DNA of 43,102 nucleotides, from the NCBI GenBank assembly GCA_018822365.1, contig JAHJKL010000064.1:1-43102 (forward strand). The letters are read 5' to 3'. Under the pieces are notes generated by a model, which had not been told where the DNA came from, did not search any database, and saw nothing but the letters and a program-made list of their open reading frames with translations. The position numbers were made by a program, and so were the translations under genes. Positions 9,055-21,014 of the stretch are shown in pieces. This DNA is from Candidatus Margulisiibacteriota bacterium (lineage in GTDB: Bacteria > Margulisbacteria > WOR-1 > O2-12-FULL-45-9 > XYB2-FULL-48-7). How positions within the stretch are numbered: the first letter of the stretch is position 1; each line of letters begins with the position of its first letter.

Positions 9055-10581
9055 TTATTCTTCCATCTCGCTCGCCGGCGGGATCAAGAGATACTTCCCG
9101 GAACTCAAAACATTGGGGTTCTCAATATTATTAACCTCCGCCAGCTTCCTGGCATAGTCGGCCCGGCCATAATACTTTATGGCTATTTTGCTCAAGGTAT
9201 CGCTCTTCGAGACAAAATGAAAAAGTCTTTTCTCCGCGCCCCCTGCTTCCGGAGTGGTCGATGGAGTGGCTTCCGGCACCGGCGGCGGAACAGGCTCCTC
9301 CGCTTTTCTGTTTTTCTCCCGGAGTTTTAGTAATTCCTCGGTCGGCGCGATGTAAACATATTTTACTCCGCGCGGGATCTTGTCTTTCGACACAAGCTTA
9401 ATATTATTATATTCGGCCAGCTCCGGATACAGGTCAGGTACATCATAATACCGGTTGGCAATATAGCTAAAGGTTTCACCCCGGGAAATATAATGGAAGA
9501 TCCGCTTGGTAATGATCTTTGGGGCCTTCTCAGTTGGCCTGGGCGGCGGAGCGACAACCTCTGGGGTCAGAACTACAACTGGTGGAGGAGGCGTTACAAC
9601 CGGCGGCGGGGGCGGAACCGATTTGACCAGCACCTGCGGTTTAGGCAGGTCCTCGGTCGCGTAACTCAACGAGAAATAGTGGGTCAAAGTCCCGCTGTCG
9701 CCGTGGTATGCATGATAGGCATAGTCAAAGGTAAATGGGCCGATCCTGATCCCGCTCCCAAAGGTCGGGTCTGTGCTGACCTGGCCTGGATTATAGGTTT
9801 GGTCCAACCCGCAGCGCAATTTTAAATATTCGTTTATCTTCCATTCGGCGCCTCCATGGAGCCGCGATTGGTAGCCCTGCCGGGTGGTAAAGTCTCCGTC
9901 CAGAGCCAAAAGGACATTTTCCCGCCAGGCGGTGCTCGCTATCCCTAGCCGGCCGATCAGCGGGATCCCCTGCTGGTCCCCGTTCCCCCAATTTATCCTC
10001 CCCCCCATACCGATCGGCAAAGTATTTTGCAGGATAAAGCCGACATTGGTCTTTGGCCAGGGAGAAAGAAGCATTCCCAGGTCAAGGTCAAAACCTTTAC
10101 CGGCATAGTTCTGGCTGCCGGTAAAACCCTGGTCAAATGATTTCAAACGGAGGCCGTAAATGACATTATCTTTTTTCAGGGCGTACGAAAGAGCGAGAAC
10201 ATCATTGTGATAATCAAAATAATCAAAGCCGGTTTGACTGGTAGTTATTATTGAGCCGACATTTGCCCCGGCATAGCCGACCCCAACGCTCCCCGGCCCC
10301 AAAGGCCAGTTCGCTCCCAGGACCAGATAGTTAACATCGCCAAGCAGGGTCGCCGACATTGAAAATATCCGGAGCTCCTGCCCGTACATCCCGGCCGGGT
10401 TATTGAACATGTTGCTCGACCCGTCAACCACCGCTGTATAGCCCCCTCCCATCCCCATCGCTCTGGCTCCAATGCTGATCTTGAGCGGATCTTCTGTGTT
10501 ACCAATTACCTCCGCCCAGGCCGAACCGATCCCTAACAATAAAAACAATAACAGCCAGATCAATCCTTTCAGGTTTTTCAT
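9055..10581 (-). CDS. PorV/PorQ-like outer-membrane barrel fused to two LysM domains
   Basis: This 508-residue protein has a signal peptide (about residues 1-23, cut after AWA). IGARAMGMGGGYTAVVDGSS and NNPAGM follow at 37-65, the hallmark of the PorV/PorQ family of outer-membrane barrels; the barrel appears to extend to about 310. A proline-rich linker (323-347) leads to LysM 1 (about 361-412), a second linker (429-440) and LysM 2 (about 453-501). LysM domains bind peptidoglycan or chitin-type glycans, so the protein could link the outer membrane to the wall. The start overlaps the upstream gene by 4 nt (ATGA). PorV proteins act as shuttles in type IX secretion; no other T9SS gene is seen here. 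Confidence 0.85.
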   Translation of the reverse strand: MKNLKGLIWLLLFLLLGIGSAWAEVIGNTEDPLKISIGARAMGMGGGYTAVVDGSSNMFNNPAGMYGQELRIFSMSATLLGDVNYLVLGANWPLGPGSVGVGYAGANVGSIITTSQTGFDYFDYHNDVLALSYALKKDNVIYGLRLKSFDQGFTGSQNYAGKGFDLDLGMLLSPWPKTNVGFILQNTLPIGMGGRINWGNGDQQGIPLIGRLGIASTAWRENVLLALDGDFTTRQGYQSRLHGGAEWKINEYLKLRCGLDQTYNPGQVSTDPTFGSGIRIGPFTFDYAYHAYHGDSGTLTHYFSLSYATEDLPKPQVLVKSVPPPPPVVTPPPPVVVLTPEVVAPPPRPTEKAPKIITKRIFHYISRGETFSYIANRYYDVPDLYPELAEYNNIKLVSKDKIPRGVKYVYIAPTEELLKLREKNRKAEEPVPPPVPEATPSTTPEAGGAEKRLFHFVSKSDTLSKIAIKYYGRADYARKLAEVNNIENPNVLSSGKYLLIPPASEMEE

Positions 10582-11408
10582 CTTCTGATCACCGCGACCT
10601 TGCCGCGAGCCAAGGTCTTCCCGCTTGATTTGTCGATCACATGGACCAGATAGACCCCGTTGGAAGCCATTTCGCCGAAATCGGAAATACCGTTCCAGAC
10701 CAGGCTGTTGTCGCCGGAACGGCCGCCGTTGGTCCCAGCCAGGTAATCCCGCCGCCAGAGCCGGTCAGCGGTCATGCTGAAAATAACGGCCGTGACATTG
10801 GCATCACTATTAAGTTTATACATAATAGTGGTCGATTCCCTCGCCGGATCAAAGGGATTTGGCGAATTAAGGATCAGAGCGATATCGTAAGCAAAGCTCT
10901 TGACCTCAAAACCATCGGGGAGGATCCCCACCAACCCATTGATGTCGGCAACTTCAACGGTCCACAGCCCGGTCAGAGCGCCGGCAATGTTAAAGTCGCA
11001 ATAGATCTCGGAAGCGCCGATCGTCATGTTGGTCCCCGGGATATCGGACTGGCCGGGGTGAGTAAGCCTGACAGTGGTGCTGGAAAGAAAATTGGCGCCG
11101 GAGATCTTGACCCTGATCGGGGCGATATTGTAGCCGGATGCCGGCTCCAGGGTCAGGAGCCAGGGGGCAAACGACCAGACCGAGGCAAACGGCCCCGAAG
11201 CCATCAAATAACTGCCGCCAGACATTGGCCGGGTCTGATAATAATCGCCAACCGACGACGAGACCAGCCCGCCGCCGCTGGGAGCTCCGCCATAGTAATT
11301 GGTCCCTCCACCCAGGAGGTAACCGGTCCCGCTTAAAGTGTCCGCCAAACCAAGGCCGGTCAGACCTAGTACAACCAGAATAATTGCCAACCATTTTATT
11401 ACTCTCAA
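10578..11408 (-). CDS. Exported protein with TIG/IPT and FlgD-Ig/T9SS-sorting-like C-terminal domain
   Basis: The 276-residue protein has a signal peptide (1-22). A middle Ig-like domain (about 90-175) has LEPASGYNIAPIRVKISGANF, typical of IPT/TIG folds. The C-terminal 85 residues run from SPNPFDPARESTTIMYKL to SNGVYLVHVIDKSSGKTL, the pattern of FlgD-Ig domains and of type IX secretion sorting domains (N-P-F, hydrophobic strands, W-N/D-G, ASGVY). The start is TTG at 11408, with AGGGAGGA five bases upstream. The stop overlaps the PorV-like start. I infer a surface protein carried or anchored by the downstream barrel; this is not shown. Confidence 0.75.
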   Translation of the reverse strand: MRVIKWLAIILVVLGLTGLGLADTLSGTGYLLGGGTNYYGGAPSGGGLVSSSVGDYYQTRPMSGGSYLMASGPFASVWSFAPWLLTLEPASGYNIAPIRVKISGANFLSSTTVRLTHPGQSDIPGTNMTIGASEIYCDFNIAGALTGLWTVEVADINGLVGILPDGFEVKSFAYDIALILNSPNPFDPARESTTIMYKLNSDANVTAVIFSMTADRLWRRDYLAGTNGGRSGDNSLVWNGISDFGEMASNGVYLVHVIDKSSGKTLARGKVAVIRR

Positions 11409-11420
11409 AGGCTTCCTCCC

Positions 11421-12098
11421 TTATATTATTAGTGATTTGCCGCCGCTGCCAAGAAATATCAGGTCCTGCGAGAACTCGATCCAGGGGGATTTGGATGTAT
11501 CGGTATCGGTTTCATTCTCCGGCAGGTCGGTCGCTCCAAGATCGCCGTACATATCGTACATCGCGCAGGCGGCGGGCCCGGTCTTGTAATAGCCGATCTC
11601 GATCGACAATCGCTCCCCGTAAGCAAAAGTTTGGTTTACCGTATAACCCGGTTTGGGACACCCCCGATTGGTATAAGAATTGGTCAAATCCAAGCTGGTC
11701 GCGTATACCCCAAAAAAGTAACTTCTTAGGAGTGTGCCATCGTTTGACCACCGCTTAAGCAGGACAAACCGTTTCGCGGTTGCCGCGCTCTTTTTCCCCA
11801 GAAGATATCCTTTGATCGAACAACTAATCGTCTGAGCGGCTAAGGGATCGGAAATGTACATGCGGTTGACAATATAAACCCCGCTAGCGCTATAGCTTCC
11901 TGTCGATTTACCAAGCATTGCGGTCCCTGATTTGCTTGTCACCATTCTGACCCGATCCGCATTGGTCGAGCTATACCAGGAGTCAAATGCCGGAGAAACT
12001 GGGGACGCGCCGGAAGATGGCAGATAAAACCGGGTCGCCGCCATTACTGGCCCGGCCGCAGTCACGATCAAAAATATTATCAACAACTTCTTCAACAT
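11421..12098 (-). CDS. Exported hypothetical protein, 225 aa
   Basis: A signal peptide occupies residues 1-20 (hydrophobic core LLIIFLIVTAAGPVMA, cut before ATR). The rest is Ser/Thr/Tyr-rich and beta-strand-like, with three cysteines near the middle and C-terminus. I know no family for it. Composition and position suggest a component of the same surface assembly as its neighbours. It begins 4 nt after the stop of the 2015-residue protein and ends 12 nt before the next gene, so it is operonic. The ATG at 12098 has only a weak AAGAG upstream. Confidence 0.75.
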   Translation of the reverse strand: MLKKLLIIFLIVTAAGPVMAATRFYLPSSGASPVSPAFDSWYSSTNADRVRMVTSKSGTAMLGKSTGSYSASGVYIVNRMYISDPLAAQTISCSIKGYLLGKKSAATAKRFVLLKRWSNDGTLLRSYFFGVYATSLDLTNSYTNRGCPKPGYTVNQTFAYGERLSIEIGYYKTGPAACAMYDMYGDLGATDLPENETDTDTSKSPWIEFSQDLIFLGSGGKSLII

Positions 12099-12102
12099 TT
12101 AT

Positions 12103-15100
12103 TTAGCTCTTGGTGTAATAAACCGTAATGCTCGCGCTGGTCACCCCGCCGGTCACCCCGGCAATATAGAAACGCAAGGTATTGCCGCTCGTGTAGGCAG
12201 TATTATTGAGCGTCGCGTCATTTCCCCAGATCCCCGGTGTTGCGGTGGCGGTCCCGACCTCCGAACCGTTATTGTAAAAGACCCCGGTCACATTGGTCCC
12301 CCCTTCGCAAAAGACATAAACCCCGGTGATCGTCGCGTTAAACGGCAAGCGGATATTGGCTGAATTTCCTACCCCGGGCTGGATAAAGACCCCTGATTTG
12401 CTGTCGCTAAATGTTTCCCAGGATGGAGCGCTGCTTCGAACAACCATGAGCTGACCGGTCGACCCGACCGCCCTTTTTGCCAGAGTAGTTGTCCCGGTCG
12501 CGTAGAGGATATCCCCGGTCGCGTAAGAGCTTTGTCCTGTCCCGCCATAGTTAGCGGCAACAGTATTTCCGTTCCAGGTAGAACCGGTCGACATTGTTTT
12601 ATTGGTCAGGGTTTGTGAATCAGAGTCACCAACAATCGTCCCGGTCGGCACAGTTTTACCCGAACTCTCCAGTGCTGTTCCGCCGCTGTTCATCCGGACC
12701 AGTTGGCTGGCGGTAAAGCTGGTCGCGTTGGTCCCCCCTCTGGCGATCGCCAAAGTCCCGGAACTGATATTGCCGGCATTGAGCGCTGATAAATTAGCAC
12801 CGTTGCCGCTGAAAGCGGTCGCCGTCACTGTGCCGGTAATGTTGATCCCGGCATTGGCATTGATCGCTCCATTGGCAGTCAAAGTGGTAAAGGTTCCGGC
12901 CGCCGGAGCAGAGCCGCCGATTATCGCGTTATTGATCGTCCCGCCGCTAATTGTCGCGGTGTTGATCGTCGGCGAGGTCAGGGTCTTGTTGGTTAATGTT
13001 TGAATATCGGTCGTTCCAACAAAAGCGCCGGTTGGGGCAGTCCCAGCCGAATCGTATTGTGTCCCGCCGCTGTTCATCTTGATAACCTGGTTCCCGGCAA
13101 TTCCGCCAGCCCCACGAGCCGAGCCGCCGTAAGCAACCGGCAAGATACCAGAACTAATATTGCCGGCATTAAGGCTGGTCAAATTAGCGCCGTTACCGCT
13201 AAAAGCTGTCGCCGTCACTGTGCCGGTAATGTTGATCCCGGCATTGGCATTGATCGCTCCATTGGCAGTCAAAGTGGTAAAGGTTCCGGCCGCCGGAGCA
13301 GAGCCGCCAATTATCGCGTTATTGATCGTAGATCCGCTTATTGTTCCCCCGCTAATCGTCGCGGTGTTAATGGTCGGCGAGGTCAGGGTCTTGTTGGTCA
13401 GTGTTTGCGATTTAGTAGTAAAACAAAGCGTGCCAATTCCATACGAGGCGCTCCCGTCATAAATATTATCCGCGTACAATGTCCGCCAATGCCCGCCCGG
13501 GTCTGTCCCCAGGTCATAGATCGCCGAGCTCGGCCGCAAGTGCGTATTGATCGCCGTAGTCGTTAAATTGGACAGGGCAAGATTAGCCCCGGCATTATTG
13601 TCGACATACCATTTGTTCACCGCGTCACTGCCAGCGACTGGAGTGCTTACGTTTGTAATAACAGCATTTGACATATTAAGCCCGGAAACCGTCAGCGCCC
13701 CCAAAGTCGAAGTCCAGGTCAGAAGGCCCGAACCATTGGTGGCCAAGACATTTTTATTGGCTCCATCCGCGCTCGGCAGGGTATAAGTAGTTGAGCCGGC
13801 CGCCGCCGCCGGGGCAAGACCGACATAACCGGAAGCCGCGCCAGATAACCGGATCGCCCCTTTGACATCTAACGGCGCGCCGGGAGAGTCGGTGGCTATT
13901 CCAACATACCCGCCGGAGCTGATCTTGACCAGATCGGTCCCGGCATTATTCTGCACCTTTAAGAGATCGGCAGTCTGCCCTGAAGCCCCTTTGATCTTTA
14001 CCCCTTCCTTGGCGGCAGTATTGCCAACCACCTCAAAAAGAGCGGTCGGAACCGGCGTACTGGTATAAATATTATCGGTTATCGTCGTGTAATCTGAATT
14101 AAATTGGAGCCGATCGAACGGCGCGTCCGATCCATAGGTCCCCCCCATGAAGGTGGCGTAATTTTCACTGGTCCCGCTCTTGATCTGGAAATACGCGGTC
14201 TGCTGATTGTCGCTCCAGGCGCTGTTATTGGAAACAATGCGCAATTGTCCATTGGTCCCGCCGCCATATCCGGCCAGGATCAAACCGGCCCCATCGTTTG
14301 GATTAGCAATGGTTATATTAGAAGCCGAACCATTTAAGCTAAGCAAAGGACTGGGAGAGGCGGTCGTATTTACGTTAACCACGCTGGTTGAACCGTCCGC
14401 CCGCCTGACCTGAAAACCAGTCGAAGAGTCGGCCGCCGGGTAAACATATCCGCTCTTGACCGACCCAAAAGTTCCCAGTCCGCTCGTCGATAATTGCTGA
14501 GCCCCCAGATTGACAGTCGAGGTCGCGCCGGTGTAAGGGACCGCCAGGGTCCCGATAGAAACAAAGCTCGCGTTCCCTCCCCCGTCTTTAGCTAAAACAT
14601 TGTTAGTGGACGCTCCAGACACATCGGTCAAAGCATTGATCGCGTTTTGGCGCGTGGTTTGGCCTGTTCCACCGTTTACTATTGCTACGGTCCCGGTAAC
14701 ATTGGACGAAGTTCCAGTCGTGTTTTGGTTTAAAGTTGGGATATCGGAAGCAACCAAAGCCCTGAATTCCGGAGTGCCGCTGCTGCTGACCGGAGCGGCC
14801 AGCACATAGTGGGCTGTCTGGCTCTGCCAGGAGCCAATGATCGTCCCGCTGCTCGTAACTGGCGAACCAACAACATTAAACTGCGATGGAAGAGAGAGTC
14901 CGACTGAACTTACCGTCCCGGCCGCTGCCGAATCCCACTTGACCCCGGTCGGCTCGCTGGAATCGGCCTTGAGGACTTGTCCGTTGGTCCCCACCAATAA
15001 TCTATCAGGCGTTCCATTCCCGTTATACACGATCAGGTCCCCTTTAGTCGTGCCAAGCGATTTGGGGATCTGCGCTTCATTGGAAACATTCCCCAGGCCG

Positions 15101-18100
15101 ACCTGGGCCGGAGTATAGTCTCCCGGCTGGGCGGTGATTGGCCCGGTCCGGCCAAACACGCTCGCTACGGTATTGGTCGATTGGATCCTCTGCCAGGTGC
15201 TCCCGTTATAGATCGCCCAGTCATTAACCGCCCAGGTGGTAATACCACCAAGCTCGGTGCTCCCGGCAACATTGACCACATAATAATTTCCCGCTTCTCC
15301 GGTACTGCTAAGCAAAGTTGGAGTATTAGCATCAGCATTCCAGGTATCCTTATATTTAAGCGCCCCAAGCAGGTCGCCAAACAAGTCGCTCTTGGAGATC
15401 CTTTTCTGGGATGAACCGGTATAAAGAGGGATATAATCATTCAAATATGAGCTATTCACAATAGGGAGATCACTTATATCCATGGAAACCGCCACAGAAC
15501 CAACCCCATTGGAAATAACAATGCCATCTCCGGGATTAAGATTGGCAATCGTATAACCTGTCCCGTTGCCGATCAGCAGCTGCCCCCCGGCCGGCGCGGC
15601 AGTCAGACCGGTCCCCCCGTGCGCTATTCCCAAAGTCCCGGCCATATTGCTCAAAGTTAGATTGGCTTCATTGACCTCAAGGCTAATGTGATCGGTATTG
15701 ACCAGACCGATCGTTAGTTTGTTCGAGGCGGAATTTATTTTATAGAACTCAAGGTCGGCCCCGGTCTTCTGTTTATAAAGCCCAACCCCGGCCGAGCCGA
15801 CATTGGAAGCGGTATTCGCCTGCCCTGGTATCCCGGTCAAGCGTGATCCGTCGATCGCCGGAAGTTTGGCTTCCGCGTCAAGAGTAACCAGCTGGCCGGC
15901 CGCAAAACCGATCGGCAGGTTGGCTGAAGGAACAACCCCCGCGTCACCAGGAATATTGGCAAAACTCGTTAACGCGCTCCCGTCAACTTTCCCGGCGGTA
16001 GTGATCGCCGCCAGTTTGGAATCGGGGATCGATCCGGCCAGCTTTTCGGTCGTCACCGCGTCGGTCGCGATCTTGGTCTCCGTGATCGAATAATCGGGGA
16101 CATTGGTCGCGGTCACGTTGGTTAAATTTGAAGCGTCGATCGTCGGTAATTGGCCCAAATCGTTCAGGGTGACTAATTGGTTCGCGCCAGTCCCAATATT
16201 CAAATTAGCATTTGGAATTGTTCCAGCTCCAGCCGGAATGTTCCCCAAAAAGCTAAGTGAAGCGCCGCTCACCTTCCCCGCCGCGGTGATCGCGTTTAAT
16301 TTGTCTTCTGTTATGCCGCCGGCCAGTTTTACATTTGTCACCTGGCTGTCTCCAATATCGATCGTTTGAATGGTTTCGTCCAGGATCTTGGCCGAAGTAA
16401 CCGATTCGTCGCTGATCTTCGAAGTAGAGACCGCGTTATCGGCTATGTCGGTCGCGACCACATTGGCCAGTTGAGAGCCGTCGCCGACAAAAGCGGTGGC
16501 GGTGGCGACCCCGGTCAGGGTCAGGTTGGAAAATGTCAGGTCGGCCGCCAGTTTTTCCGACGTGACCGCCGCGGTCGCGATCTTGCTGGTGGTCACCGCG
16601 TAATCGGCGATCCCGGTCGCTAACACACCTGACAACTGGGAGCCATCGCCAATAAAGGTCACAGCCGAGATCGTCCCGGTCGTAGTAATAATAGTATCGC
16701 CGCCGATCGTTCCAGTAGTAATCGCGTTTCCGGAAACCAGGCCGGGGGCTTCGAGAGTCGCAAGATTCGCGTTCGGGAGATAACCTTTAACCTGGGAAGT
16801 TAGATCGACTTTGTTCGCTTCGTCCGGAGTGGTAATCGTGCTCCAAAGCTGGGTCCCGGTATGATTTGTCCGGCTAAGATAGTAACTCCCCGGCTCTCCT
16901 TCAAGGGAAGCGGCATTATTAGCGGTCAAACCGGTCAGGTTGGAGCCATCGCCATAAAAACTTGTCGCGGTAATATTGCCGGTCGTATCTATTACAGTAT
17001 CGCCGCCAATCGTCCCGGTGGTGATCGCGTTGCCCGAAACCTTCCCCGCCGTCGTGATCGTCGCCAGGTTGGCGTTGGGGAGAAGCCCGGTTACTTGAGA
17101 AGTCAGATCAACTTTGTTGGTCGCCGTGTCGATCGTATTCCAATCTTGCGTTCCGGTATGATTTGTCCGGCTAAGATAGTAACTCCCCGGCTCTCCTTCA
17201 AGGGAAGCGGCATTATTAGCGGTCAAACCGGTCAAGTTGGAGCCGTCGCCAAAATAGCTTGCCGCGGTAATATTGCCGGTTGTATTTATTACAGTATCAC
17301 CGCCAATGGTTCCCGTTGTTATCGCGTTTCCGGAAACTTTTCCAGCTGTGGTGATCGTCGCCAGGTTAGCGTTGGGGAGAAGGCCGGTCACCTTAGCGGT
17401 CAGGTCGATCGTCCCATTGGCGATCTTATCGTTGGAGATCCCAAAGTCTTTGACCTCCAAAGAGCTGGTCACAATATTCCGGCCAATCGTCACATTATCG
17501 ATCGGCACGTTCCCAACCGCGGTTGGGGCCCAGGTCATCGCCGAACCATTCCACGATAAAACATCACCGTTGCTAGGTGAAGAAATTGTATCCAGCTTTT
17601 CACTTTTGATCCCGCCATCGGTTACTTCCAGTTCGCCATTGTTATTTGTGGTAATTGTCCCGCCATCGGTTACCACTTCAATCGTCGCGGTTCCGGTCCC
17701 GTTGCTCTGGCTGGTCGTGACACTGATATTAGAACCTGGGAAAAGCGCATGAACAACATTGTCGGCAAAAGAGGCGCGGTAAGCATAAGGGACACTGACC
17801 AGTCGGAGCCTTGGAGTCAGGATCGTCCCTTCAACATTAATTTCCAGATATGCTTCGGTCCCGGCAAAAACCGCCTGGGGGACCGGGTCGCTTTGCGAAC
17901 CAAGTAAAATACTAAAAGTTCCGCCCGAATCTGGGGAGGTCGGATAATTTCCTGAAGTCCAGAGAGTGTTCCCGTATGTCTCCGCGTCATAGATCTTGAA
18001 CTGAAGTGTTTTAGCTTCCAGGATCGGCCGCCCTGCCGGGTCGGTCAATCGGCCGGTATAGCTTAATAAGCGGGGAACCTCCGCCTGCACTATCATTGAA

Positions 18101-18150
18101 AATTGAAATAAACAAAGTATTAATAAAATCAATTTCAAACCACGCTTCAT
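12103..18150 (-). CDS. Giant exported tail-fibre-like repeat protein, 2015 aa
   Basis: A signal peptide (1-23) is followed by a module at 24-130 ([20 protein letters not shown] to VPYAYRA) shared with the gene at 18374. Residues 200-930 repeat [41 protein letters not shown] and [11 protein letters not shown] motifs. Around 930-1025, [33 protein letters not shown] and AQVGLGNV match phage long-tail-fibre sequences. Later parts repeat [20 protein letters not shown] and end with a beta-rich tip. The composition is dominated by G, T, S, N, A and I, with little charge and almost no cysteine. AGGAGG supports the ATG. No phage structural genes are nearby. Likely a secreted surface fibre or adhesin. 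Confidence 0.85.
   Translation of the reverse strand: [2015 protein letters not shown]
12818..12918 (-). repeat. 101-bp perfect direct repeat, copy 1, inside the giant fibre gene
   Basis: Identical to 13208-13308 at every base; the flanking 50-100 bp are also similar but diverged. The two copies are 390 bp apart, equal to 130 codons, so the repeat unit is in frame. Confidence 0.95.
13208..13308 (-). repeat. 101-bp perfect direct repeat, copy 2
   Basis: Partner of 12818-12918. Identity at third codon positions points to recent duplication or gene conversion rather than protein-level constraint alone. Confidence 0.95.
16856..16937 (-). repeat. 82-bp perfect direct repeat, copy 1, inside the giant fibre gene
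   Basis: Identical to 17153-17234, 297 bp (99 codons) away. It encodes the [26 protein letters not shown] segment. Confidence 0.95.
17153..17234 (-). repeat. 82-bp perfect direct repeat, copy 2
   Basis: Partner of 16856-16937; the spacing keeps the reading frame, marking a 99-residue unit of the fibre. Confidence 0.95.
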
Positions 18151-18166
18151 ATTTTCCTCCTAATAA

Positions 18167-18242
18167 ATTCCCACACCAAAACCCCGCCCGAGCATACAAA
18201 GTAATCTGTGCCGCAAGCGACGGAATGTTTTGGTGTGGGAAT
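18167..18242 (-). repeat. 16-bp perfect inverted repeat enclosing 44 nt, in the leader of the giant fibre gene
   Basis: Arms at 18167-18182 and 18227-18242 are perfectly complementary (ATTCCCACACCAAAAC and its reverse complement). The 44-nt centre is GC-rich and can form a small CCG/CGG hairpin. On the minus strand the element starts right at the poly-T of the upstream terminator and ends about seven bases before the AGGAGG site of the 2015-residue gene. It is either a cis-acting leader structure or a small palindromic insertion element. I see no match to a riboswitch class I know. Confidence 0.85.
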
Positions 18243-18271
18243 AAAAAAGGCAAGGGGTAACCCCTTGCCTT
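18243..18271 (-). terminator. Rho-independent terminator after the 659-aa fibre gene
   Basis: On the minus strand an 11-bp stem (AAGGCAAGGGG with its complement, loop TTA) is followed by TTTTTT. It lies about 100 bp after the stop of the gene at 18374 and so separates the two fibre genes into distinct transcripts, or attenuates read-through. Confidence 0.88.
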
Positions 18272-18373
18272 GGCAAACCAACTGGCTCACATTTTATTAA
18301 ACAACTGGCCATATCCTGCACAGTATGGAGTGCTTTGTCCATATATGTCAAGATGCGTTTATTCCCCTAAATA

Positions 18374-20353
18374 TCAATTGAAATGGAGCAATACCTTGCC
18401 TAAATATGGTGAACCGGAAACTGTCTCCAGTGCATGCCCAACCTCCTGCCAGTGTGCAACGGTCGAGGGCGGGACAAGTTGATCGCCATCCGCCCGGCCG
18501 GCGGTTACATTTGAAGTATAAACAAAATTCCCGTGGACCGGCAGCTTGGTCGTTTCGTATAATACATCGCCAATCCCGGCAACTACGACATAGCACTGTT
18601 GCCCATTGGCTACGCCATTATCGTAAACCGCTCCAATGCAATCCAGGGAAGAAACACTGCAAAGAACAAAACTATTATCGGCAGTCGGGCTACTTCTTAC
18701 CAATGTTCCTTTGACCGAAGCTCCGCCGGTATTATTGGTCAGCTTGACGGCGTAACCCCCTTCTGGAGTGATCTTAAATTTAGGCCCCATCACTGAAGCG
18801 GAGCCGGCAACCTCGATCGTCCCGGCAACGGTCAGCTTTGAAGTTGGATTGGTCGTCCCAATGCCAACCAGATGAGAAACCGGGTCAAGCCTCATCAGCG
18901 CGCTCCCCAACGAACCATTATATTCCTTAAAATCCAGGTAGTAAGAATCGGCAATGCACTCTATCTGCCAGCCGTAATTTCCTGTCGCATGATCTATAAA
19001 CTGCAGGTTCATATTGGTGTTCGAATCCAATCGGAGCGAGGCGTTCGTCCCTTCAATCGTCAACCGGCCGGTCATCGTGTCACCCGTTTTAAGGATTTTG
19101 GTATTATCATCAGCGGAAATCCCTGTCAATTTCGAACCATCCCCATAGAACCGGCCGGTCGCCGCTTCAATTGACGCCCCGGCAGAACCGACCTTTATGT
19201 TCCCCGCGACTTCCAGCGAAGCGGAAGGATTTGCCGTACCGATCCCGACATTGCCCCCAGTCGTGATCCTCATCCTCTCGGCTTGGTAGGTAAAGAAAAC
19301 TATCGGGGTATTGCTCCAGGTAGCGACAACACACTGGTTGGTCGATCCCGTAAAATGAACCCCATCAACGCCAAACAGGCCTCGGACCGCCTCGTCATTG
19401 GTCCGGCAGTCCAGATACGCGCTCTCCCCTGCCGTCAACGCTTTCAATCCAAGCGCTGGGCCGTCGCTGTGCACGGTCAGCATAGAGTTTGACAGTGCCG
19501 GCCCGCCAATATTTACTTGTGTCGCAAAACTTCCCGTCCCATTCACCGTTAGGGTCTTGGCTGTTTCGGTTGTCCCGATCCCGACATTAACTAACGTCGT
19601 TACTTTTCCGCTCCCATCCAACCATGAGCTTGTCCCCGCTTCTCCCGTCGGACCCTGCGGACCGATGGCTCCAGCTTCTCCCGTCGGTCCTTGTGGACCA
19701 ATGGTCCCTGCTTCACCGGTCGGCCCCTGCGGACCGATCGCGCCAGCTTCTCCTGTCGGCCCCTGTGGCCCAGCCTCTCCGGTTGGCCCTTGAGTCCCTG
19801 TTCCCGAGATGGATATCGTCACTTGCCCCGTTCCGTTATTTTCATCAGCCGATATGGCAACATTGGTCCCGGCAATTATGCTTTTTACAAAGCTATCTTT
19901 GGCTACTTTTCCCCTGGTAACCGCTTCGTTGGATATTTTTTGCGTGGTAATCGAGGAGTCAGCCACCGAATCAGCGGTCAATGATTTATACGCGAACGGA
20001 ACACTGGCCAAACGAAGCCGGGGAGTTAGAACATTCCCTTCAATAATGATCTCCAGATAGGCTGTAACACCGAAAAAAACGGTTTCACCGATCGGGTCGC
20101 CATTGCTCCCAAGCAAGACGCTAAAAACCCCGCCCGCGTCCGGAATAGTCGAATAATCGGCCGAGGTCCAAAGAGGGGTTCCGCCGCTCTCCGCGTCATA
20201 GATTTTGAATTGGACCGTTTTTGCGGTCAGGATCGGGCGACCCAGTGAGTCGGTCAACCGCCCGGTATAGCTTAATATTTGAGGAACATCGGCAAAAACC
20301 ATTGGGGCACTTAATAAAACAAGGAGAATTATCAGTCCTCTTCTTAGGCTCAT
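18374..20353 (-). CDS. Exported collagen-like/tail-fibre-like protein, 659 aa
   Basis: After a signal peptide (1-21) comes the same N-terminal module as the giant protein (about 23-125: [20 protein letters not shown] to SVPFAYK). Residues 185-240 are collagen-like, with repeated [10 protein letters not shown] units. Then follow [26 protein letters not shown] and [11 protein letters not shown] tail-fibre-type repeats. The last 120 residues (from [15 protein letters not shown]) resemble, by eye, phage head-decoration/DUF2190-type beta domains, with G-x-x-V-K-G and G-R-A-D-G-D. The ATG at 20353 has GGAGGGG upstream and a good promoter. Presumably a surface fibre; the phage-like parts are inferred from repeat style. 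Confidence 0.85.
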
Positions 20354-20382: not shown

Positions 20383-20411
20383 ATTATCTATTTATTGCCT
20401 AGGAATGTCAA
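20383..20411 (-). promoter_or_regulatory. Sigma70-type promoter of the fibre locus
   Basis: On the minus strand TTGACA (20411-20406) and GATAAT (20388-20383) are 17 bp apart. The start site would be near 20376, about 23 nt before the ATG at 20353, with GGAGGGG in the leader. Confidence 0.7.
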
Positions 20412-20489: not shown

Positions 20490-21014
20490 ATGATCGGAAA
20501 GATAAGCAAGTCCAAACCACCTTCAATGCCAGTTAAAAGCAGGCCTCAAAGGGATAGGGAGAAAATCAAGCTGATCAATAACTGTCTGGATAAAGATCAG
20601 GTGGTCAGCGCTCTCCGCCTTTCCCGGCAGATCGAGGATCCTTCGTTGCGTTATAAAACGCAAATGGAAAAACTGGTCGATCCCTTTTTGTATAATGACA
20701 ACGCCGGGATCGCGTCTGAACTATTAAGCGACGATTGCGTGGTTTTCGCCAGGAGCCGGCCGCGAGCGGAGCGCCTCACCTTATTGGCCCGGATCGCTTT
20801 TAAATTATCCAAGATCAATGGAAATACCGAAGAGTTGACCGCGCAGATCCACGCGACCCTCCTGCAAATGGCGGTAGTTTTTACCGAAGATTACAAAGAA
20901 TTAACCGAACAAAAAGTTGACGCACTGGTCGGCCAGATCTCCCTGGAATGGGGAAATTTTTCCCTGACCAAATATCACGATCGGCTGGTCCGACTCCTCA
21001 AAACCTACCGTTAA
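20490..21014 (+). CDS. Hypothetical protein, 174 aa
   Basis: I do not recognise it. The first 30 residues are basic and probably disordered (SKSKPPSMPVKSRPQRDREK). The rest is predicted helical, with heptad-like leucines (VVSALRLSRQIED, LTLLARIAFKLSKING, LVRLLKTYR), reminiscent of small helical-repeat proteins. No signal peptide or membrane segment. M13 (20526) is an alternative start; neither has a strong ribosome site. It is the only plus-strand gene between the fibre locus and nifU, and its stop overlaps the nifU stop tail-to-tail (shared TTAA). Confidence 0.65.
   Translation: MIGKISKSKPPSMPVKSRPQRDREKIKLINNCLDKDQVVSALRLSRQIEDPSLRYKTQMEKLVDPFLYNDNAGIASELLSDDCVVFARSRPRAERLTLLARIAFKLSKINGNTEELTAQIHATLLQMAVVFTEDYKELTEQKVDALVGQISLEWGNFSLTKYHDRLVRLLKTYR

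Follow-up and report, generated by a model that had tools for sequence, protein, structure and literature searches.

The window, a 43,102-nucleotide stretch of DNA from a Candidatus Margulisiibacteriota bacterium (contig JAHJKL010000064.1, positions 1 to 43,102), carries at 9055-20353 a cassette of five genes for exported proteins of 659, 2015, 225, 276 and 508 amino acids (aa). The two largest proteins are fibres of the mosaic adhesive trimer (MAT) type, the 276-aa protein ends in a FlgD-Ig-like domain, and the 508-aa protein is a PorV-type barrel with a LysM tail. The new element is the genetic linkage of MAT, FlgD-Ig and barrel genes. MAT fibres serve predatory Bdellovibrio in prey recognition, and the surface element that holds their conserved base was left unidentified by their discoverers (PMC10769870). 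The same pairing recurs across the phylum, which makes the barrel a candidate fibre anchor that can be tested, and we lean towards the reading that the cassette encodes MAT fibres shown on the outer membrane and held there by a wall-tethered PorV-type barrel.

The fibre proteins share the MAT N-terminal domain

As described in the original prediction, the 659-aa and 2015-aa proteins share an N-terminal module (58-65% identity) and diverge thereafter. The module spans residues about 23-123 and about 25-126, respectively, and that of the 659-aa protein matches the NCBIfam family NF053851 (Bdello_MAT_N; 1.4e-6). A genome-wide search with this family retrieved both copies in the window and two more from the same genome, none of them above the curated cut-off; a sequence search returned the same four. 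For each of 16 diverse members from the window and its relatives, NF053851 is the only NCBIfam family matched (best 1.6e-10). With a profile derived from the relatives, six of six MAT proteins were found on fetched Bdellovibrio loci (2e-11 to 9e-8 in this small set), and a profile-profile comparison (hhalign) with the Bdellovibrio MAT N-domain gave a probability of 96.9% and an E-value of 1.6e-10. The bait used to search for the Bdellovibrio loci was a MAT N-domain sequence; the conclusions rest on the fetched loci, not on the bait. Judged by sequence, the module is the N-terminal domain of the published Bdellovibrio MAT fibres and not a new one, and the relation is homology at the superfamily level rather than membership in the Bdellovibrio subfamily.

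The architecture resembles that of the MAT proteins of Bdellovibrio bacteriovorus (PMC10769870; NF053851), in which a signal peptide is followed at once by the homologous beta-rich N-domain of about 130 aa, a shaft and an exchangeable tip, which may or may not be of the S74 kind. In contrast to these, the N-domain described here is about 25 residues shorter and stays under the NF053851 cut-off, other tips and shafts occur (collagen, YadA), and the MAT genes are linked to genes for PorV-type barrels and FlgD-Ig proteins, unlike in two Bdellovibrio drafts. The module is present in 39 of the 57 genomes analysed, the source genome included, and 74 of 80 MAT open reading frames (ORFs) encode a hydrophobic N-terminus. 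MAT-type fibres are placed in a second lineage, one with small genomes, where they are mixed with collagen, YadA and phage-fibre modules. No credible solved relative of the N-domain was found (9rce_H, E 0.13, was judged a chance match), and the best Foldseek match of its model, which is of modest confidence, was to an unrelated protein (E 0.008). Searches of viral contigs, plasmids and phage records gave no match to the module, and a phage origin for it was rejected. The two further N-domain genes of the source genome (G000:C82, L038; G000:C70, L039) each adjoin a FlgD-Ig gene without a barrel, and the congener G001 has counterparts of both (L048, L069).

MAT, FlgD-Ig and barrel genes recur together

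Gene neighbourhoods were analysed by ORF calls and profile matches in stretches of about 20 kb, of which 62 hold MAT loci and 20 served as controls; all were taken from the 57 genomes. A PorV-type barrel gene lies on the same strand within 3 kb of 37 out of 80 MAT genes and on the opposite strand in two cases; among control ORFs, a same-strand barrel within this distance was found for 5 out of 346. About three such neighbours would be expected by chance, estimated from about 12.5 barrels per 1.6 Mb. The binomial tail for 37 out of 80 is about 1e-31, a figure that ignores relatedness. An exported FlgD-Ig protein is encoded within 4 kb in all 37 barrel-linked MAT loci, and homologues of the 276-aa protein adjoin MAT and PorV genes in relatives. 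The gene orders MAT-Ig-PorV, Ig-PorV-MAT and PorV-Ig-MAT were observed, with the 225-aa gene between MAT and Ig in the window; the recurrence of three orders points to a functional set rather than to one inherited block.

When the MAT label is mapped onto a tree of 61 barrels, 10 changes are required compared with 20.5 after shuffling, and none of 500 shuffles was as low. The barrel of the window belongs to a clade of 14 members (support 99), nine of which are MAT-linked. This count is conservative because fibre-like genes are cut at the contig end in L139 and L145, two members scored as unlinked. The recurrent set consists of three parts only: MAT fibre, FlgD-Ig protein and PorV-type barrel. 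A fixed unit of five genes was rejected, since the 225-aa gene occurs in just one relative. Whether the five stay together, a point raised by the original prediction, is answered in the negative: three parts recur, the 225-aa gene has a counterpart in a single further genome, the 659-aa gene looks like a transcription unit of its own, and the set is accessory at this site.

Many barrels carry wall-binding tails and are encoded beside FlgD-Ig proteins

The barrel region of the 508-aa protein covers residues about 30-310 and matches PorV_fam (1.9e-20), under the 90-bit cut-off of this family; it is followed by a proline-rich linker and LysM at the C-terminus. One of the two LysM domains described earlier was recovered (457-501, 3.1e-9), the second one (about 363-412) was recognised by eye only. 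The profile of the barrel family matches the solved PorV of the type IX secretion system (T9SS; 6h3i, 4.2e-7), and the tail matches solved S-layer homology (SLH) domains. A wall-binding domain was detected in 15 of 30 MAT-linked barrels (13 SLH, 2 LysM) and in 17 of 20 barrels away from MAT (15 SLH, 2 LysM); overall, roughly two in three of the scanned barrels have one, mostly SLH. These counts, along with the absence of phage genes nearby, support the earlier proposal of a surface-fibre set whose barrel could bridge outer membrane and wall. Barrels of the PorV type that end in SLH or LysM are possible membrane-wall tethers.

The barrels resemble PorV/PorQ of T9SS in belonging to the same family by sequence (PorV_fam; 6h3i) and in being paired with Ig proteins similar to the T9SS C-terminal domain (CTD). 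They differ from these in their SLH or LysM tails and in number: PorV-type barrels are greatly expanded among the 57 genomes, and as many as 19 are encoded in one genome of about 1.7 Mb. SprA of T9SS was found in none of 30 genomes and the C25 peptidase in none of 20, in searches run without a positive control. OmpM-type SLH tethers likewise join an outer-membrane barrel to a peptidoglycan-binding domain, and the SLH part of the relatives' barrels has its solved matches in the 8bym group of SLH-domain proteins, which we take to be OmpM. Unlike in the OmpM type, the barrel here is PorV/FadL-like, the wall-binding domain is C-terminal, and the copy in the window carries LysM. A literature search for PorV with S-layer homology, PorV with Margulisbacteria and OmpM with Margulisbacteria found no paper in the library searched.

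The 276-aa protein had been described as a TIG/FlgD-Ig protein. Its C-terminal FlgD-Ig or T9SS CTD-like domain lies at about 166-276; the Pfam match to FlgD_ig is below threshold (0.048), and those to the T9SS sortase C-terminus (5.6e-5) and TIGR04183 (0.017) are both under the cut-off. The TIG assignment was dropped, having no Pfam support at E 0.1. In 14 of 20 barrel loci away from MAT (L139-L158), the gene immediately upstream of the barrel encodes a FlgD-Ig protein. The pair of barrel and FlgD-Ig protein is general in these genomes, and MAT therefore joins an existing pair at some loci.

A candidate anchor for MAT fibres and the alternatives

The proposed arrangement builds on the homology of the N-domain, the export signals, the barrels with their wall-binding domains, the co-location of the genes and the clustering on the barrel tree. 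All five proteins would be exported by Sec. The barrel would insert into the outer membrane, where its LysM tail (SLH in other genomes) would hold the peptidoglycan and the barrel itself would serve as a docking site. By analogy with T9SS C-terminal domains and PorV, the FlgD-Ig protein may dock on the barrel and would join it to the base of the MAT fibre, which would be held by the barrel, the FlgD-Ig protein or both. A trimeric shaft would point outward, with a swappable tip attaching to a surface target. Formation of trimers, passage across the outer membrane, docking of the N-domain on the barrel or the FlgD-Ig protein and a role in adhesion are steps that we infer. The wall-tethered barrel, together with the CTD-like protein, is presented as a candidate for the MAT anchor and not as its identification; the value of the recurrent link is that this candidate is concrete and can be tested.

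Several observations weigh against this reading. A recognised wall-binding domain is absent from half of the MAT-linked barrels, and 31 of the 80 MAT genes have no barrel gene and no FlgD-Ig gene within 3 kb, in some cases because the contig ends. The pair of barrel and FlgD-Ig protein is widespread without MAT. The MAT N-domains score below the cut-off of NF053851 (e.g., 28 bits compared with 60 bits). In two Bdellovibrio drafts, 14 MAT genes and weak PorV-like barrels are located on different contigs, and no PorV gene was found beside MAT genes in these two draft genomes. Related barrels are present in Bdellovibrio and could act from elsewhere in the genome.

The alternative that survives best takes barrel and FlgD-Ig protein as a real pair, forming a T9SS-like, SprA-free unit for export or display in which the barrel would capture proteins that end in a FlgD-Ig domain. 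MAT would then be one passenger among many, and the barrel would act in export or sorting rather than as a standing anchor. This agrees with the FlgD-Ig proteins, often of 600-3000 aa, that are encoded immediately upstream of the barrel gene at 14 of the 20 loci away from MAT, and with the likeness of the 276-aa C-terminus to T9SS sorting domains and of the barrel to PorV. However, the MAT proteins have no FlgD-Ig domain, the wall-binding tails suit a fixed tether more than a shuttle, and the link to MAT is kept within several barrel clades. We regard this alternative as unlikely. Comparably tentative is a wider proposal, according to which a large family of wall-tailed PorV-type barrels, each with a FlgD-Ig or CTD-like partner, would serve the phylum as a general SprA-free platform for surface display with MAT as one plug-in cargo; the pair would be the missing MAT anchor, and Bdellovibrio would use related barrels encoded elsewhere.

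It is less probable still that the genes merely share a neighbourhood in which exported genes cluster, with no direct functional link between MAT, FlgD-Ig protein and barrel. Every part is indeed exported and variable, gene order varies among the loci, and the cassette is accessory at its site; yet the strand bias (37 vs 2), the short or overlapping gaps and the clustering on the tree surpass what a loose neighbourhood would give. A remnant of a prophage or tailocin with leftover fibre genes is largely excluded: tail-fibre-like repeats, PHROG tail-fibre matches (mostly across the collagen-like repeat) and the viral relatives of the 225-aa protein would fit it, but every protein carries a Sec signal, no phage gene was seen nearby, the N-domain is missing from the phage, plasmid and viral sequences searched, and the tips are missing from phage records.

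Shafts, tips and the 225-aa protein

The N-domain of the 659-aa protein is followed by collagen-like repeats at 185-241, confirmed by a match to Pfam Collagen (1.3e-8), and a beta-rich C-terminal tip. In the 2015-aa protein, long fibre-like repeats follow the N-domain, and the C-terminal tip resembles by eye that of one relative (L040). A phage origin of both tips was rejected, as phage records gave no match; neither tip was assigned to a family. As in the Bdellovibrio MAT fibres, the tips are mosaic among 65 MAT C-termini, with the S74 chaperone in five, K1-lyase_C in six and the YadA head in three, accompanied by glycine-rich, collagen and depolymerase-C modules. An ending of the type FxYLIIN is common to many MAT proteins of relatives (L052, L053, L064, L066, L067, L071, L072, L077 and others); no Pfam family was seen for it, and it may mark a tip family that is so far undescribed. 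Phage tail fibres and virion structural proteins share with the present system the fibre repeats, the collagen, S74 and depolymerase-like modules of the relatives and the homology of the 225-aa protein to viral proteins; the cassette differs from them in its Sec signal peptides, its genomic context free of phage genes and an N-domain absent from phages.

Among the 57 genomes, the 225-aa gene was found in only one other (G002), where it occupies the same position beside a MAT gene whose product has a C-terminus resembling that of the 2015-aa fibre. Its viral relatives are 33-37% identical (phage Wakanda 24%). Those on viral contigs begin with MATRFY or similar and have no signal peptide; in the 225-aa protein, a signal peptide precedes ATRFYLP, which corresponds to the start of the viral relatives. 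In the alignment with viral proteins, one sequence has a match to a virion structural protein of PHROG. For the predicted fold of the 225-aa protein (pLDDT 69), the best counterparts in BFVD are phage proteins, some of the fibre type (2.3e-10). By alignment and fold model, the protein is a phage-fibre-type accessory with an export signal added in front. Set beside the viral-type loci (L159-L164), the gene looks like a domesticated phage structural gene whose product is now exported.

Layout of the locus and genomic context

ORFs were called mechanically, and the five genes were found in the places and on the single strand given for them previously (Table 1). The claim of Sec signals on all five proteins holds as well: the N-termini are basic and strongly hydrophobic and have no lipobox. 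Cleavage motifs were read by eye; a crude script misplaced the cleavage for three of the five.

Table 1. Features of the MAT fibre cassette in the window
Feature	Position	Strand	Evidence
659-aa exported fibre gene	18374..20353	(-)	ORF call; NF053851 and Collagen matches
2015-aa exported fibre gene	12103..18150	(-)	ORF call; N-domain homology
225-aa exported accessory gene, phage-fibre type	11421..12098	(-)	viral relatives; fold match
276-aa exported gene, FlgD-Ig / T9SS CTD-like C-terminus, proposed adaptor	10578..11408	(-)	weak family matches; TTG start
508-aa PorV-type barrel gene with C-terminal LysM, proposed anchor	9055..10581	(-)	PorV_fam and LysM
promoter-like site 5' of 659-aa gene	20383..20411	(-)	11/12 consensus positions; consensus match only
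terminator-like hairpin, 11 pairs and T run, 3' of 659-aa gene	18247..18271	(-)	

In the direction of transcription, the order is 659-aa fibre, 2015-aa fibre, 225-aa gene, 276-aa gene and 508-aa barrel. The last four follow one another closely, with 4, 12 and -4 bases between them, and end 42 bases short of mnmA. The locus probably consists of two transcription units, with the 659-aa gene alone in one of them, because this gene has a promoter-like and a terminator-like site of its own.

The neighbours are either housekeeping genes or without an assignment; those assigned are mnmA, nadA, iscU, iscS, tilS, folP, secDF and a metal P-type ATPase gene. In agreement with the original prediction, a scan of 20 neighbouring ORFs turned up no gene of phage type and none for lysis or integrase. 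The cassette sits between iscU and mnmA. It is accessory at this site, since several relatives have iscU and mnmA adjacent or one gene apart with the cassette absent there; in the congener G001, mnmA is followed by one unrelated gene and then a 174-aa gene, with no cassette. The order iscS-iscU-mnmA-nadA is contiguous or nearly so in relatives. In the window, the 174-aa protein gene (20490-21014, plus strand), whose product has no Pfam match, converges on iscU; in the congener it is kept beside mnmA (L166).

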